The translations under genes were made by a program, and so were the position numbers. The notes under the pieces are model-generated. The model was not told the origin of the DNA. It did no database searches and saw only the letters and a list, made by a program, of their open reading frames with translations. 64,000 bases of DNA. It comes from Bacteroidales bacterium. GTDB lineage: Bacteria; Bacteroidota; Bacteroidia; Bacteroidales; UBA6680. The DNA is taken from the NCBI GenBank assembly GCA_025210735.1, contig JAOARD010000020.1:1-64000 (forward strand), given 5' to 3'. Shown here piece after piece: positions 20,379 through 32,917 of the stretch; the first letter of the stretch is position 1, and every line of letters begins with the position of its first letter.

Positions 20379-20882
20379 TTATATAATATCTTTGTAAAGT
20401 TTATAATTTTCATCGTCAAAGCAGACAAATATAACCTTTTCAACTACATCTGATACAATATTCTTTACCGCAGATACAGCAATTTCAGCAGCTTTAGCCT
20501 TAGGAAATCTGTATACACCTGTACCTATATTCGGAAAAGCAATACTCTTAACACCATTCTGCTCAGCTAGTTTTACAGAGTTCAAATAACAGCTCTTCAG
20601 TAATTCTGCTTCACCTTTACCACCACCGGTCCAAACCGGTCCAACTGTATGAATAACATATTTTGCAGGCATATTTCCGGCAGTAGTAATAACAGCTTCT
20701 CCTGTTTTGCACCCGCCCTGCCTGTTACGTATCTCTATACACTCATCAAGAATAACCTTACCCCCTGCTCTGTGAATTGCACCATCAACACCGCCGCCGC
20801 CAAGCAACGAACTATTTGCTGCATTCACAATCGCATCAACATTAAATGTTGTTATATCACCTTTTACAAGCTCAATATTCAT
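20379..20882 (-). CDS. ymdB: Macrodomain O-acetyl-ADP-ribose deacetylase
   Basis: A 167-residue single macrodomain of the MacroD/YmdB type. It shows [20 protein letters not shown] at the N-terminus, the [14 protein letters not shown] loop (28-41) that contacts the distal ribose, IHTVGPVW, and the IGTGVYRFP phosphate loop. Members hydrolyse O-acetyl-ADP-ribose and can remove ADP-ribose from glutamate/aspartate or RNA 5' ends. Cytoplasmic. All ligand loops are intact, so activity is likely. A KptA RNA phosphotransferase, whose reaction makes ADP-ribose 1'',2''-cyclic phosphate, is encoded about 5.5 kb away, not in the same operon. Confidence 0.92.
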
Positions 20883-26373: not shown

Positions 26374-26922
26374 ATGACAAACGGAAAGCCCCTTATAAAA
26401 ATTAGCAAATTTCTGAGTCTTGTATTAAGACACAAGCCAGAACAGATTGGTATAGAGTTAGACAACAACGGATGGACAAGTGTAGATGAACTTATATCTA
26501 AAATGAACTCAAATGGTAAGAGTATAGATTTTGAAACATTAGAGCTTGTTGTTGATACAAATAACAAAAAGAGATTTTGCTTTAACAAAGATAAGACCCA
26601 AATACGAGCCAATCAGGGACACTCAATAGATATAGATCTTGGATATACTGCAAAAACACCTCCTGCCCTGTTGTATCATGGTACAGCAGACAGATATACA
26701 GATAGTATATATAAGCAGGGGATACAGAAAAGAGACAGACATCATGTTCATCTGAGTAGCGATATAGAAACAGCTTTATCTGTAGGTAAAAGGCACGGTA
26801 AACCTGTAATATTTGAGATAGATACAGAGCCTATGATTAACAACGGACATATATTCTACCAATCGGAGAATGGTGTATGGCTAACCAATGAGGTTCCTGC
26901 ACAATATATAAAAGTCAGATAA
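26374..26922 (+). CDS. kptA: RNA 2'-phosphotransferase (Tpt1/KptA family)
   Basis: A 182-residue KptA. In yeast the family transfers the 2'-phosphate of spliced tRNA to NAD, giving ADP-ribose 1'',2''-cyclic phosphate; bacterial members do the same in vitro and may act on RNA repair products or 5' ends. The N-terminal winged-helix half carries SKFLSLVLRHKPE with the conserved R19-H20 pair. The C-terminal ART-like half carries IRANQGHS (R79), LYHGTA (H102) and HHVHLS. All key segments are present, so it should be active. It sits between two membrane-protein genes with no RNA ligase nearby. Confidence 0.92.
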   Translation: MTNGKPLIKISKFLSLVLRHKPEQIGIELDNNGWTSVDELISKMNSNGKSIDFETLELVVDTNNKKRFCFNKDKTQIRANQGHSIDIDLGYTAKTPPALLYHGTADRYTDSIYKQGIQKRDRHHVHLSSDIETALSVGKRHGKPVIFEIDTEPMINNGHIFYQSENGVWLTNEVPAQYIKVR

Positions 26923-26989: not shown

Positions 26990-27646
26990 ATGGAATTAGT
27001 AACATACCAGAAATACAGAACAGTAGAAGAAGCTGCCGAAATGGTTCATCTGCTAAAGGATAATGATATAGATTATTATATAGAGAATATAGCACCATCA
27101 ATAGATATAACTTTCTCAGGCGGAACAGAGCTGGAACATAAGATTGCTATAAAACTGTATCAGAACGATTTTGACAGAGTAGACAAACTTATGTGTAATA
27201 TAGCTGCAAACAACATAGATCTTGTTGAGGAGGATCATTACCTTTTTGAATTTACAGACAATGAGCTGTTTGATATGTTTAAAAGGTATGATGAGTGGAA
27301 CAAAACAGATCTGGTACTTGCCAGGAAGATATTAAAAGAGCATGGCAAAGATATTACCGACCAACAGGTAGAGGAGCTGAAAAAAAACAGAATAAAAGAG
27401 CTAAAAGTACCTGATAAAGGATCTGCATTTTGGCTAACAGTTGGTTTTATACTGGCTTTTCTCGGAGGTTTTTTCGGTATGCTCATAGGATATTATCACT
27501 TCTGGCTGAAAAAGATTCTGCCTAATGGCGATAAAGTATTAGTATATAATAAAAGAACACAAACATCAGGTATGATAATGTTCTGTATTGGTACCATAAG
27601 TTTTACACTATGGATAATGTGGTGGTATAAAAGAATTTTACTATAA
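26990..27646 (+). CDS. DUF2007-like membrane protein, tandem copy 1
   Basis: A 218-residue protein. The N-terminal 75 residues (LVTYQKYRTVEEAAEMVHLL) resemble the DUF2007 putative signal-transducing fold; a charged helical middle (YDEWNKTDLVLARKILKEHG) follows; two membrane helices lie near 148-167 and 193-212. The next gene encodes a homologue of the same plan, so this is a tandem duplication. Function unknown; the conserved part is the soluble N-terminus plus the DMF(K/R).YDEWN segment, while the membrane part has drifted. Confidence 0.65.
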   Translation: MELVTYQKYRTVEEAAEMVHLLKDNDIDYYIENIAPSIDITFSGGTELEHKIAIKLYQNDFDRVDKLMCNIAANNIDLVEEDHYLFEFTDNELFDMFKRYDEWNKTDLVLARKILKEHGKDITDQQVEELKKNRIKELKVPDKGSAFWLTVGFILAFLGGFFGMLIGYYHFWLKKILPNGDKVLVYNKRTQTSGMIMFCIGTISFTLWIMWWYKRILL

Positions 27647-27666: not shown

Positions 27667-28329
27667 ATGGAATTTGTTACTTATCAGAGATTCAGGACTA
27701 TTGAAGAGGCTGAAGATATAACCAAACAGCTTAAAGATTTTAATATAGAGTACAGGTTAGAGGAGATTGTAACACCTGTAGATATTACATTTACAGGTGG
27801 AAACGAGACCGAAAACAAGATTGAACTAAGAATAAATCCGGATAATTTTGATTTTGTAGATGAACTGATGAGCAATGTAGCATCGCCAGATATGCAGTTT
27901 ATAGACGAAACCCACTTTCTGCATGAGTTTACCAACAAAGAGATGATAGACATGTTCAGAAAATACGATGAGTGGAACAGATTAGACCTGACATATGCCC
28001 GCGAATTGCTAAAAAAGAGAGGTTATGATATAACCGACGAACAGATAAAGAAATTTAAGGACGATAGAATTGAGGAGTTAAGAAAACCCGAAAATGTTGA
28101 GATGGAAAAGATGTACAGAAAGTTTGCATACGTAGTTCTGGGAGGTTTTCCGCCAATAATAGATGGGCTGCAATATATGAATACAAAAAAACAACTCCCA
28201 AACGGAGAGACTGTATACTCTTATGACAAAGAGACAAGAAGAACCGGTTTATGGCTGTTTGTAACCGGAATTATCGGATTTATGACATTTCTGCTAATAG
28301 CCTATTACAGATTCCTTCATGAAGATTAA
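27667..28329 (+). CDS. DUF2007-like membrane protein, tandem copy 2
   Basis: A 220-residue paralogue of the preceding protein, about half identical by eye over the first 140 residues (FVTYQRFRTIEEAEDITKQL; DMFRKYDEWNRLDLTYAREL). The first hydrophobic segment (FAYVVLGGFPPIIDGLQYM) is weaker than in copy 1, so it may have only one clear helix near 195-212. It starts 20 bases after copy 1 and ends before a long non-coding stretch, so the two genes form one unit. Confidence 0.65.
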   Translation: MEFVTYQRFRTIEEAEDITKQLKDFNIEYRLEEIVTPVDITFTGGNETENKIELRINPDNFDFVDELMSNVASPDMQFIDETHFLHEFTNKEMIDMFRKYDEWNRLDLTYARELLKKRGYDITDEQIKKFKDDRIEELRKPENVEMEKMYRKFAYVVLGGFPPIIDGLQYMNTKKQLPNGETVYSYDKETRRTGLWLFVTGIIGFMTFLLIAYYRFLHED

Positions 28330-29894: not shown

Positions 29895-30650
29895 CTAAAC
29901 TCCATTCTCAAACTGTTTCTTTATCACTTCTGGATATTGATGCCATATTCTTCCATTTAGTTCTTTACCATTAAGTTTTTTATTACGCTTTATCTTGTCA
30001 GCTCCCCAAGTACCCCATTGCTTGAAAAAAAATGCTACATTTCCGTTTTCACATTGCTCCTTAATATTTAGAACCCATTTTATATCCATTGGTCTAGCTC
30101 TATTTCCACTTTCTCCACCAACAATAACCCAGTCTATATTTTCTAGGTTTATACTACCTAAATCTTCCAATAACGGCTCTATCGACAAGAATAATACCTT
30201 TGCCTGCAAACTTCTCAATTTATCAATACGTGGTACTCCCTGTGACTTATTTTCTACAGTAACCCCTAACCAAACATTCGAAGGTATTCTATTTCTCAAA
30301 AAATAATCATACATTCTATCAGCTCTTTTTGTAAGTATCTGATAAGTATGTTGTGGTGTTGCTTCAATTATCGAAAATATTTTATCCAAATAATCTAACG
30401 GCATTCTTTCATGAAAAATATCACTCATTGAATTCACGAAGTATACTGTTGATTTTTTCTTCTTTAAAGGCTCATTTAAACGCGATGGCACAATATTAAA
30501 TTCAAATCCATTTTCATAACCAACTGTTCTCATAGCCCTTAGTCTCTGTGCCATTACTTCCGCATAACAGTTTTTACAGCCTGAAGATATTTTTGTACAA
30601 CCAGAAGTAGGATTCCATGTTGCCTCTGTCCATTCAATCCTTGTTGCCAT
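29895..30650 (-). CDS. DUF5131 (phage Gp37/Gp68-like) three-Cys-motif protein
   Basis: A 251-residue protein of the DUF5131 family, also named after phage Gp37/Gp68. The N-terminus IEWTEATWNPTSGC is the family hallmark. Cysteines 18, 25 and 28 (C-x6-C-x2-C, in GCTKISSGCKNCYAE) form the three-Cys motif, which recalls but does not match the radical-SAM CxxxCxxC. Later segments (YQILTKRADRM, WLGVTVEN, FLSIEPLLED, DWVIVGGESG, FFKQWG) are all typical of the family. Reaction unknown; an iron-sulfur or metal site is likely. It begins 6 bases after tcmP, its usual partner. Confidence 0.88.
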   Translation of the reverse strand: MATRIEWTEATWNPTSGCTKISSGCKNCYAEVMAQRLRAMRTVGYENGFEFNIVPSRLNEPLKKKKSTVYFVNSMSDIFHERMPLDYLDKIFSIIEATPQHTYQILTKRADRMYDYFLRNRIPSNVWLGVTVENKSQGVPRIDKLRSLQAKVLFLSIEPLLEDLGSINLENIDWVIVGGESGNRARPMDIKWVLNIKEQCENGNVAFFFKQWGTWGADKIKRNKKLNGKELNGRIWHQYPEVIKKQFENGV

Positions 30651-30656
30651 TATCTT

Positions 30657-31829
30657 TTAATTTAATGAAATATTTACTTTAACATTTTTACTAGTAAAAT
30701 TGTTGTAAGATAAGTAAAACGCGCCTTTACGTGCTTCCCTATTCTTCTCAACATCAAATACTGCAATTTTTCCCATTTTTTGTAAATCCTTTAAAACTTC
30801 ATTACAATGTTTTATTAAAAACATATTCCTTAATGTAAATTCATATAACTCTTTATTGTTAACTATACTCTTATTTGAAATAAAATCAACAACCAAATTC
30901 TTCAATTTATTAAACTGATCATCTCTTGTTTTCTCTTTAAACTCATCATCAAATAATCCCAGCATTGGCTTGGGAAGCTCAAACCCTTCTCCTGTCTCAT
31001 CATTAAGATTCCATTTCACTTCTACTATCTTCTCTAACCCTTTCAAATTTGATGTGATAGAAAACATTGCAAAATAGTGACCTTTATTATCTCTCTGTAA
31101 ATAAAATGATGTTGAATAATACTCATCATCAAAATTTAGTGCAGTACGTATATGTTCAATAAATTCTTTTTCGCAAGATGCTTTTCCATTTCTCATTGGA
31201 TGGTTCTCATCAGGAAAAAAACTATAAATAAAATCACGCAATCCAACAATACATTTATCAGTCTCTTGTAAAACCTTACCTGAAAAACGATATATATTTG
31301 ATATTGGCAAAAATAATATTATCTCAGTATTTTTCTTTGAAAGTAATCTTCTTAAATCTTCTTTTTTTATATTCTTATATCCATAAGGATCTATCAACAC
31401 TAAATTTCTTGATGCAGAATTCTGTGTATCAACAAATTTAACAATCTGATCAAGAAATTCAGATGCATCTTTATTATAAAAGCCTAGATCGCAATATTTT
31501 TTTTTGTTCTTATCTGAAAGATACTTCTTTACTCCATTTATTTTATCTGAATCTAAATCATTTGCACACAAACAAACAGGTGTAAGAGATTTACCTGAAA
31601 GATTATAATAACTATTTTTAATTGCTTCAAAAGCTAAAATAGGACTACCTTTTGTCCCATCTTCATAGATACCTGTTCCACAAAAAACATCAAAGATATA
31701 GATCTTCTCGGTAAACCCAGCTAGTCTTAATATAGGTAAATAACGTTTTAGATAAGATTGGTAGTAATCTAATTTTGCTTGAGAATGGGGATACATTATT
31801 TCTTTCGCACTACTGTTTTTCTTTGCCAT
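30657..31829 (-). CDS. tcmP: Three-Cys-motif partner protein TcmP
   Basis: A 390-residue TcmP protein. FDVFCGTGIYEDG (46-58) resembles a SAM-binding motif I, and LIDPYGYKNI (145-154) resembles the catalytic DPPY-type motif IV of amino-methyltransferases, so a nucleic-acid or nucleotide methyltransferase-like activity is plausible. The C-terminal part (about 280-390) looks like a winged-helix domain (NKELYEFTLRNMFLIKHCNE). It precedes and is co-transcribed with the DUF5131 gene (6-base gap). The family was named from this neighbourhood; no function is established to my knowledge. The locus is AT-rich with no mobility gene beside it. Confidence 0.85.
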   Translation of the reverse strand: MAKKNSSAKEIMYPHSQAKLDYYQSYLKRYLPILRLAGFTEKIYIFDVFCGTGIYEDGTKGSPILAFEAIKNSYYNLSGKSLTPVCLCANDLDSDKINGVKKYLSDKNKKKYCDLGFYNKDASEFLDQIVKFVDTQNSASRNLVLIDPYGYKNIKKEDLRRLLSKKNTEIILFLPISNIYRFSGKVLQETDKCIVGLRDFIYSFFPDENHPMRNGKASCEKEFIEHIRTALNFDDEYYSTSFYLQRDNKGHYFAMFSITSNLKGLEKIVEVKWNLNDETGEGFELPKPMLGLFDDEFKEKTRDDQFNKLKNLVVDFISNKSIVNNKELYEFTLRNMFLIKHCNEVLKDLQKMGKIAVFDVEKNREARKGAFYLSYNNFTSKNVKVNISLN

Positions 31830-32128
31830 GTTAATTCTTAGATTAATTATTAAGTGATATACTTATTATAGCTTAGTTTGACATAAAAATATAAAAACAA
31901 CAAAACAATACATAATATAGTCTAGGTTTATTCATCCCGCCTTAGTATATTCTCATATTAATAAATTTAGAGTATCAAACTTTAGATTAATATGTCATCT
32001 CAAAAAAACATCCGTATTACAACTAATATTAACTACACTTTTAAGATCAATCAATAAATTTCCTAATTTTATATGCTATCAGAGTAGGTTTTGTGGTTAA
32101 GTATTTTTCAATTATAAAGAGTGTAAAA

Positions 32129-32917
32129 ATGAGGTTTGTTATCAGGTTTATTGTAGTTGTATCTGTTGTAGTTTCTGTTGGGGCTTGTAAAAACGGGGTT
32201 ACAGTTACCGAGAAGAGTGAGTGGTCAGGTATCTTTAAAGATTATCAGGTGAACAGTACGTTTGTGCTTAAGAAGTTATCAAACAATAATCTTATGGTAC
32301 ATAATATCCAAAGAACCGACAGCATGTATCTTCCGGCATCTACATTTAAGATAATTAACTCTATGATTGCGCTACAAGAGTCTGCTGTAACCAGTGTAGA
32401 TGATACCATAAAATGGGATGGTAAAGACAGAAACTGGAAGATGTGGAACAGAGATCATACAATGAGAACCGGAATGCCTGTATCGTGCGTATGGTTTTAT
32501 CAGGAACTTGCCAGACGCATTGGCAAAGAGCAGATGCAGCATTGGGTTAACCAAGCTAAGTATGGTAATATGAATATAAACCAAAATATAGATGATTTCT
32601 GGCTGGTTGGCGATTTAAGGATATCTGCAAAACAGCAGATAACATTTATTGAGAATCTGATTACAAACAAACTACCATTTGATAACAGTATAGAGGATAT
32701 TGTTAAGGAGATTATGATTACAGACTCTACAGATAGTTATACTATACACTCAAAAACCGGATGGACAGAGAATATAGGCTGGAATGTTGGATACGTTGAG
32801 ACAAAAGATGGTATATGGATATTTGCTATGAATATGGATATTCTAAGCCGACACAATCTTAAGTTCAGAAAGATAATAACCTATGATATACTAAAAACTG
32901 AAGGCATTATAGAATAA
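32129..32917 (+). CDS. Class D (OXA-type) beta-lactamase, lipoprotein
   Basis: A 262-residue serine beta-lactamase of class D. The ATG at 32129 gives a proper signal with lipobox (VSVGAC, C20); an upstream in-frame GTG at 32093 only adds a polar extension. All class D motifs are intact: STFK (S71, K74, the lysine that is carboxylated), SCV (119-121), YGN (145-147), W159 and KTG (209-211). It should hydrolyse beta-lactams in the periplasm; spectrum cannot be predicted. It is monocistronic, without IS or integron features, so it looks like a resident gene. Confidence 0.93.
   Translation: MRFVIRFIVVVSVVVSVGACKNGVTVTEKSEWSGIFKDYQVNSTFVLKKLSNNNLMVHNIQRTDSMYLPASTFKIINSMIALQESAVTSVDDTIKWDGKDRNWKMWNRDHTMRTGMPVSCVWFYQELARRIGKEQMQHWVNQAKYGNMNINQNIDDFWLVGDLRISAKQQITFIENLITNKLPFDNSIEDIVKEIMITDSTDSYTIHSKTGWTENIGWNVGYVETKDGIWIFAMNMDILSRHNLKFRKIITYDILKTEGIIE

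Follow-up and report, generated by a model that had tools for sequence, protein, structure and literature searches.

Background

Spore photoproduct lyase (SPL) and lipoyl synthase are radical-SAM enzymes. The canonical spacing of the three cluster cysteines in this superfamily is CX3CX2C. Other three-cysteine spacings have been accepted for some members, and in SPL the residue directly after the third cluster cysteine is a tyrosine (Y99 in B. subtilis) which takes part in the radical path (PMC3742179). Among methyltransferases, RlmJ modifies 23S rRNA (m6A2030) and needs both K18 and D164, the K18A variant being inactive, while its active site is said to resemble those of DNA m6A methyltransferases (PMC3814359).

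The two proteins dealt with here, TcmP and DUF5131, are not new as a pair, since they are already listed in PADLOC as the unvalidated phage-defence candidates PDC-M30 and PDC-M41. Of 100 P. aeruginosa strains surveyed, 32 carried PDC-M30, and 68.8% of these carriers were phage-resistant, a figure that represents an association (PMC10855318). In S. meliloti, the TcmP gene SMa2243 has been tabulated beside the Hna defence gene SMa2245 among the genes raised by NolR (PMC12445080). DUF5131 was not found by name in the literature searched, where the pair appears only as the candidate PDC-M30, nor was any paper giving a function for either protein, and the statement of the initial annotation that no function is established still holds for that literature.

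The pair and its slot

The window, i.e. the whole stretch of 64,000 nucleotides of Bacteroidales DNA that was analysed, contains the pair together with one downstream ORF:

29895-30650, minus strand: DUF5131 gene ('phage Gp37/Gp68 family', three-Cys), 251 aa, predicted radical-SAM enzyme
30657-31829, minus strand: TcmP gene, 390 aa, RlmJ-like class I methyltransferase fold with C-terminal winged helix
29471-29875: lipoprotein ORF, downstream of DUF5131

Neither gene of the pair is disrupted, and each occurs once in the genome. TcmP is the upstream one and only 6 bases separate it from DUF5131, which bears out the tight two-gene coupling first noticed. The PADLOC-DB models PDC-M30A and PDC-M30B match TcmP (E 9e-105) and DUF5131 (E 1.4e-114), respectively, as do the PDC-M41A/B models, and the adjacency of A and B proteins by which PDC-M30 is defined is found in the window. 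Read-through into the lipoprotein gene, also proposed at first, is compatible with the 19-base gap, judging by gap length alone, but the gene was never found beside the pair elsewhere; as a third component of the system it was discarded, no homologue being detected in the five relatives or the related loci searched. The 263 bases that precede TcmP were searched for a Bacteroidetes-type promoter, but the consensus was not found. Moreover, no nuclease ORF, the linked component expected of a restriction-modification system, adjoins the pair in the window and, since neither a nuclease nor a reader stands next to it, simple restriction-modification logic is absent there.

The GC content of the TcmP gene (28.0%) is the lowest of the 43 window genes tested. 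TcmP is absent from the 30 relatives searched, save for one marginal match (31% over 78 residues). In a genome of the same genus, the flanks are conserved up to ~27560 and from 32052, while the sequence between them is not; there, a contig end lies on one side of the slot and other genes on the other. The content of this slot varies, and acquisition of the pair is probable. No mobile element is visible in the window.

As regards the surroundings, the same-genus homology ends, at ~27560, within the first of two tandem paralogous genes of ~220 aa (26990-27646 and 27667-28329). Beyond TcmP, and divergent from it, lies a gene at 32093-32917, with a probable start at 32126, for a transpeptidase-domain lipoprotein of class D beta-lactamase-like type (STFK and KTG motifs), of which the same-genus genome carries a 90% identical copy. 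To the left of this OXA-like gene, the slot of that genome (L294:128-5854, on G396:C88) encodes a 1153-aa protein and a 327-aa membrane protein along with three small response-regulator-like ORFs, possibly another conflict cassette. Further away, the window contains a KptA/Tpt1 RNA 2'-phosphotransferase gene (26374-26922) and, by eye, a likely macrodomain protein (20379-20882), both tied to ADP-ribose/NAD and RNA-end chemistry.

DUF5131 as a predicted radical-SAM enzyme

Membership of the DUF5131 or phage Gp37/Gp68 family, as initially assigned, was confirmed by a match to PF07505 over the whole length (E 1.3e-104, 349 bits against a gathering cut-off of 28.9, model positions 2-243 of 243). 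The Pfam matches are DUF5131 and GP88 alone, with none to the SPL family. The protein is a relative, not a member, of the radical SAM mobile pair protein A family (TIGR04471), for which it scores 102 bits against a cut-off of 355. Neither single proteins nor profiles gave anything meaningful when searched against the PDB, and DUF5131 has no sequence match among solved structures. Its AF2 model (pLDDT 94.7) was compared with the PDB using Foldseek. The top matches were spore photoproduct lyases (E 2e-4 to 2e-3), with 4fhg as the best (E 2.2e-4) at a moderate TM of 0.50 on the query, and lipoyl synthase (LIAS) came next. Three elements stand out in the sequence:

30564-30599, minus strand: C18-x6-C25-x2-C28-Y29, predicted [4Fe-4S]/SAM site
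30324-30332, minus strand: T107-K108-R109, at the end of barrel strand 102-107, predicted active-site residues
30105-30119, minus strand: G178-G179-E180-S181-G182 motif, after strand 174-178

The C-x6-C-x2-C site was thus correctly recognised from the start. All 193 sequences compared share C18, C25, C28 and Y29, as well as T107, K108, G179 and E180, and R109 is kept in 192. In the model, the third cysteine comes directly before helix 29-39. The arrangement of the radical-SAM superfamily, with three cluster cysteines where a TIM-type barrel begins, is matched by the invariant cysteines and the fold, although the spacing is CX6CX2C instead of CX3CX2C. DUF5131 is therefore very probably a radical-SAM enzyme, to judge from its modelled fold and invariant residues, and the initial label of 'three-Cys protein', while naming real cysteines, is better replaced by this reading. 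The hydrogen donor of SPL, Cys141, has no clear counterpart, the three cluster cysteines being the only invariant ones in the 193 sequences. SPL homologues of Bacteroidota, considered as a comparison set, were too few and too distant.

TcmP as an RlmJ-like protein

TcmP scores 130.1 bits with TIGR04474, against a curated cut-off of 53; the same search gave a sub-cut-off match, possibly RlmJ, in an E. coli control genome. Its AF2 model (pLDDT 90.2) finds RlmJ (6qe5, E 1.3e-5) as the best match in the PDB, with the RlmJ homologue 2oo3 in ninth place. The elements on which the comparison is built are the following:

31773-31775, minus strand: K19, equivalent of the catalytic K18 of RlmJ, kept in 119 of 121 TcmPs (98%)
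31671-31691, minus strand: motif I, D47-V-F-C-G-T-G53, predicted SAM-binding loop, parallel to DTHAGAG of RlmJ
31380-31391, minus strand: motif IV, D147-P-Y-G150, counterpart of DPPY in RlmJ, D147 being equivalent to RlmJ D164
30753-30956, minus strand: GMT-like winged helix-turn-helix, residues 292-359 (PF22560, E 3.2e-9)

TcmP and RlmJ share the motif order HxxxK - DxFxGxG - GSP - IDP. Among 121 TcmPs, motif I is well conserved (D47 99%, F49 95%, G51 98%, G53 93%), and the FCGTG loop pointed out at first does occupy residues 49-53, but its cysteine is not a family feature, being replaced by alanine in 77 sequences and found in 21, that of the window included. The IDPYG motif, likewise seen at first, spans residues 146-150; within it D147 is invariant (121/121), position 148 is P or Q and G150 is kept in 75%, so that DPPY of RlmJ becomes D[P/Q]xG in TcmPs. 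K19 and D147 are thus retained in 98-100% of TcmPs, despite a mean identity of 20%. The winged helix is found in 13 of 15 diverse long TcmPs.

The catalytic Lys-Asp pair and the fold of RlmJ are therefore present, whereas its DPPY motif and Pfam family are not: PF04378 matches none of 15 TcmPs, and the comparison by hhalign of a TcmP profile with the single E. coli RlmJ sequence gave a probability of 1%, which is not significant. Because of the loss of DPPY and this profile result, TcmP may bind rather than methylate. On the whole, model and motifs make TcmP a likely nucleic-acid methyltransferase-type protein, and they lean, with less assurance, towards a catalytically active one.

Linkage and exchange of partners

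In a sample of 395 Bacteroidota species, 88 genomes carry DUF5131 and 59 carry TcmP. TcmP occurs at 61 places in these genomes, 51 of which are within 2.5 kb of DUF5131, always on the same strand and with TcmP upstream in 48; a rough estimate from genome sizes gives ~0.1 such places by chance. A scan of 84,980 species yielded the best 80 DUF5131 loci, from many phyla, and TcmP lies within 2.5 kb in 68 of the 78 that could be scored; as regards viruses, both genes are present in 35 of the 80 contigs with the best matches. Each set of 80 was made up of the sequences most similar to the window protein and is therefore a biased sample. The pairing survives changes in gene order, as TcmP was found upstream, downstream and convergent. 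Random neighbourhoods lacking the partner, which the initial annotation had named as a refuting outcome, are hence not what the three surveys display.

The two proteins differ in how fast they diverge. Over 107 matched pairs, mean identity is 55% for DUF5131 and 20% for TcmP, DUF5131 being the more alike in 99.7% of comparisons, and a single DUF5131 family serves TcmPs having 16-41% identity to that of the window. Such a split between a constant and a variable part is the pattern expected if specificity partners were exchanged, and saturation of TcmP distances may contribute to it. Coupled evolution of the two was considered and rejected, the correlation between their distances being weak (Mantel rho 0.088, null sd 0.03), a result read as partner exchange or saturation. 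Furthermore, two different TcmPs surround one DUF5131 in 10 of the best-match genome loci, mostly from Proteobacteria (L068, L071, L073, L074, L077, L081, L087, L088, L089 and L098), as though a single enzyme were served by a pair of specificity subunits.

Neighbourhoods

In some loci the pair is embedded among restriction genes. In L121 the order is HsdR-TcmP-DUF5131-HsdS-..-HsdM, which places the pair inside a type I locus, and L130 and L137 are similar; type III genes adjoin the pair in L084 and L113 and lie near DUF5131 in L087, L089, L103, L119 and L123, some of the restriction genes having been assigned from protein size and BLAST clusters. When 20 Bacteroidota loci were set against control regions, each of the type I models (M, S and R) matched 2 of 119 neighbours and none of 119 control genes. 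These matches were placed, from size and order, in L158 and L164, which would make 2 of 20 loci against 0 of 20 control regions, an enrichment too weak to be leaned on. As regards the defence islands raised by the initial annotation, enrichment for restriction-modification genes is clear in some loci and modest overall.

Conjugative plasmids and temperate phages also carry the pair. In Gordonia phage Easley, the region between the integrase and the immunity repressor contains gp38 (DUF5131) and, convergent with it, gp39 (TcmP), and in P. aeruginosa plasmids the order is integrase-DUF5131-TcmP; the DUF5131 gene of the latter had no DNA-level match in E. coli genomes.

DUF5131 also occurs without TcmP, either beside DNA methyltransferases (L106, L127, L194, L213, L217 and L225) or beside conflict ATPases of the ABC-3C (L189), KAP (L139) and AAA_21 (L203) types. 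In 45 viral contigs with DUF5131 where TcmP was not found, 13 of 34 DNA methyltransferases, from three families, lie within 2 kb of it, compared with 5.1 expected under random placement (p 0.0002), and 31 of the 34 are on the same strand. This clustering is only suggestive, because random placement ignores the gene modules of phages, which it may partly reflect.

Several of these loci show further particularities. In L189 (4058-8021), 38 bases separate DUF5131 from the gene of a DUF2326/ABC-3C CTD10 protein, and a type I S subunit adjoins it; DUF5131 might here belong to an ABC-three-component system. In L139 (8577-10717) it is 21 bases from the KAP NTPase, and in L203 (5213-7838) it follows an AbiEii/OLD-like AAA_21 ATPase and a 224-aa protein. 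In two genomes (L147:5126-7563 and L149:5846-8366), the neighbour of DUF5131 is a gene for an M78 peptidase of XRE/ImmA type, 80% identical between them, and another conserved gene, of ~168 aa (DUF4411 by count), is shared. Distant DUF5131 domains are fused to long N-terminal parts, ParB-like by eye, in L200 (5078-6370) and L201 (3929-5818), that of L201 having no Pfam match. Finally, in L193 (5422-6501) the DUF5131 ORF runs into an apparent IS5-type transposase N-terminus.

Proposed mechanism and alternatives

The reading we favour, to which a probability of roughly 45% is given, is that TcmP and DUF5131 may form a mobile two-gene unit for nucleic-acid modification in phage-host conflict. Within it, the family and fold of each protein, the conservation of key residues, the pairing and its mobility are the parts supported by the data. 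The three cysteines of DUF5131 would hold a [4Fe-4S] cluster, at which SAM would be cleaved to give a 5'-deoxyadenosyl radical, in a protein apparently built most like spore photoproduct lyase, an enzyme acting on a DNA base. TcmP, as a putative variant of the RlmJ-type adenine-N6 methyltransferases, would pick the target nucleic acid, hold the flipped-out base and probably methylate it by means of the retained Lys-Asp pair; DUF5131 would then work on this base or on its methyl group. In this way, DUF5131 would contribute the constant chemistry and TcmP the exchangeable specificity subunit. SAM cleavage, methyl transfer, the base, the choice of DNA or RNA, the order of the steps and the outcome, be it host defence by marking host DNA or harming phage, or protection of the mobile element's own DNA, are parts which we infer. 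That the two proteins act on the same nucleic acid is given even odds, while some role of the pair in phage conflict is considered rather likely. DNA would be a more likely target than RNA, in view of the SPL fold and the methyltransferase neighbours in phages, RNA being a possible one as RlmJ acts on rRNA. The proposal of the initial annotation, that the pair modifies nucleotides or nucleic acids in the course of phage conflict, is supported in part, as family, fold, motif and neighbourhood all point that way.

A broader and more speculative extension, held to be doubtful, is that DUF5131 might be a general radical-SAM 'second-step' enzyme for bases marked or presented by a partner of methyltransferase fold. 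The partners would be RlmJ-like TcmPs in host conflict loci and DNA methyltransferases (C5, N6/N4 and D12) in phages, and the whole would constitute a modular 'methylate-then-radical' hypermodification writer with exchangeable specificity subunits.

The best surviving alternative, although unlikely, is an abortive sensor-effector couple, where TcmP would be a non-catalytic sensor of phage activity, binding SAM or nucleic acid, and DUF5131 a conserved effector which, once released, would damage a universal component (tRNA, DNA or a nucleotide), guarding restriction systems as PrrC does. A constant, effector-like DUF5131 next to a fast-changing TcmP, the position inside a type I locus, the altered motif IV of TcmP and the TcmP-less DUF5131s beside typical conflict sensors and ATPases (DUF2326/CTD10, KAP and AAA_21) would all suit this scheme. 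Nevertheless, the near-complete retention of the RlmJ catalytic lysine and aspartate would be odd in a pure sensor, and stand-alone DUF5131s near DNA methyltransferases in many phages fit modification better than a toxin.

It is improbable that the pair serves repair or demodification of DNA or RNA, with TcmP as the locator and DUF5131 reversing a lesion or stripping the hypermodified bases of a phage so that restriction enzymes can act. Even though the closest solved fold is that of a radical-SAM DNA repair enzyme and pairs are embedded in restriction loci, phages, where it is also common (161 phage records), would gain nothing from stripping their own modification, and the missing clear equivalent of Cys141 also speaks against it. 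Slightly less probable still is a maturation role, in which DUF5131 would modify a conserved residue of TcmP after translation and thereby make it an active enzyme; strict linkage and the NCBIfam name 'three-Cys-motif partner' would reflect such a dependence, but TcmP offers no obvious invariant target besides its catalytic positions, very diverse TcmPs are served by one DUF5131 family, and DUF5131 often occurs without TcmP. Lastly, a housekeeping modification of the host with no tie to phage conflict, suggested by the ordinary genes flanking the pair and the lack of a mobile element in view, is very improbable given the absence of TcmP from the relatives searched, the different content of the slot in the same-genus genome and the presence of the pair on conjugative plasmids and temperate phages.

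Comparison with known systems

The pair is widespread, being present in many phyla, plasmids and phages, and is counted in defence surveys. If the favoured reading were true, phage-host conflict would include a radical-SAM route, distinct from viperin, by which nucleic acids are modified. Prokaryotic viperins are also radical-SAM enzymes in phage conflict, but viperin is not among the 50 fold matches listed for DUF5131 and follows a different partner logic. Spore photoproduct lyase shares with DUF5131 the best solved fold match and the three cluster cysteines followed by a tyrosine, whereas it has CX3CX2C in place of CX6CX2C and DUF5131 works with a partner. RlmJ, in turn, is the best solved fold match of TcmP, with the same motif order and with K18 and D164 equivalents kept, and differs in its DPPY motif and PF04378 family, TcmP having D[P/Q]xG and an added winged helix. 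PrrC, like further modules that lie within type I restriction loci, resembles the pair in its placement between hsd genes, but these belong to other protein families and the pair carries no anticodon nuclease.

Within NCBIfam TcmP (TIGR04474) and PF07505, nothing sets the window pair apart, its TcmP being of the long form that has a winged helix, and PDC-M30/PDC-M41 of PADLOC is the same system, with both proteins adjacent. The PADLOC entry comes without a mechanism; to it are added here the folds, the catalytic residues, the swapping of partners and the alternative neighbours. What is new is a testable mechanism for a known pair, which names residues for mutation and a chemistry to look for.
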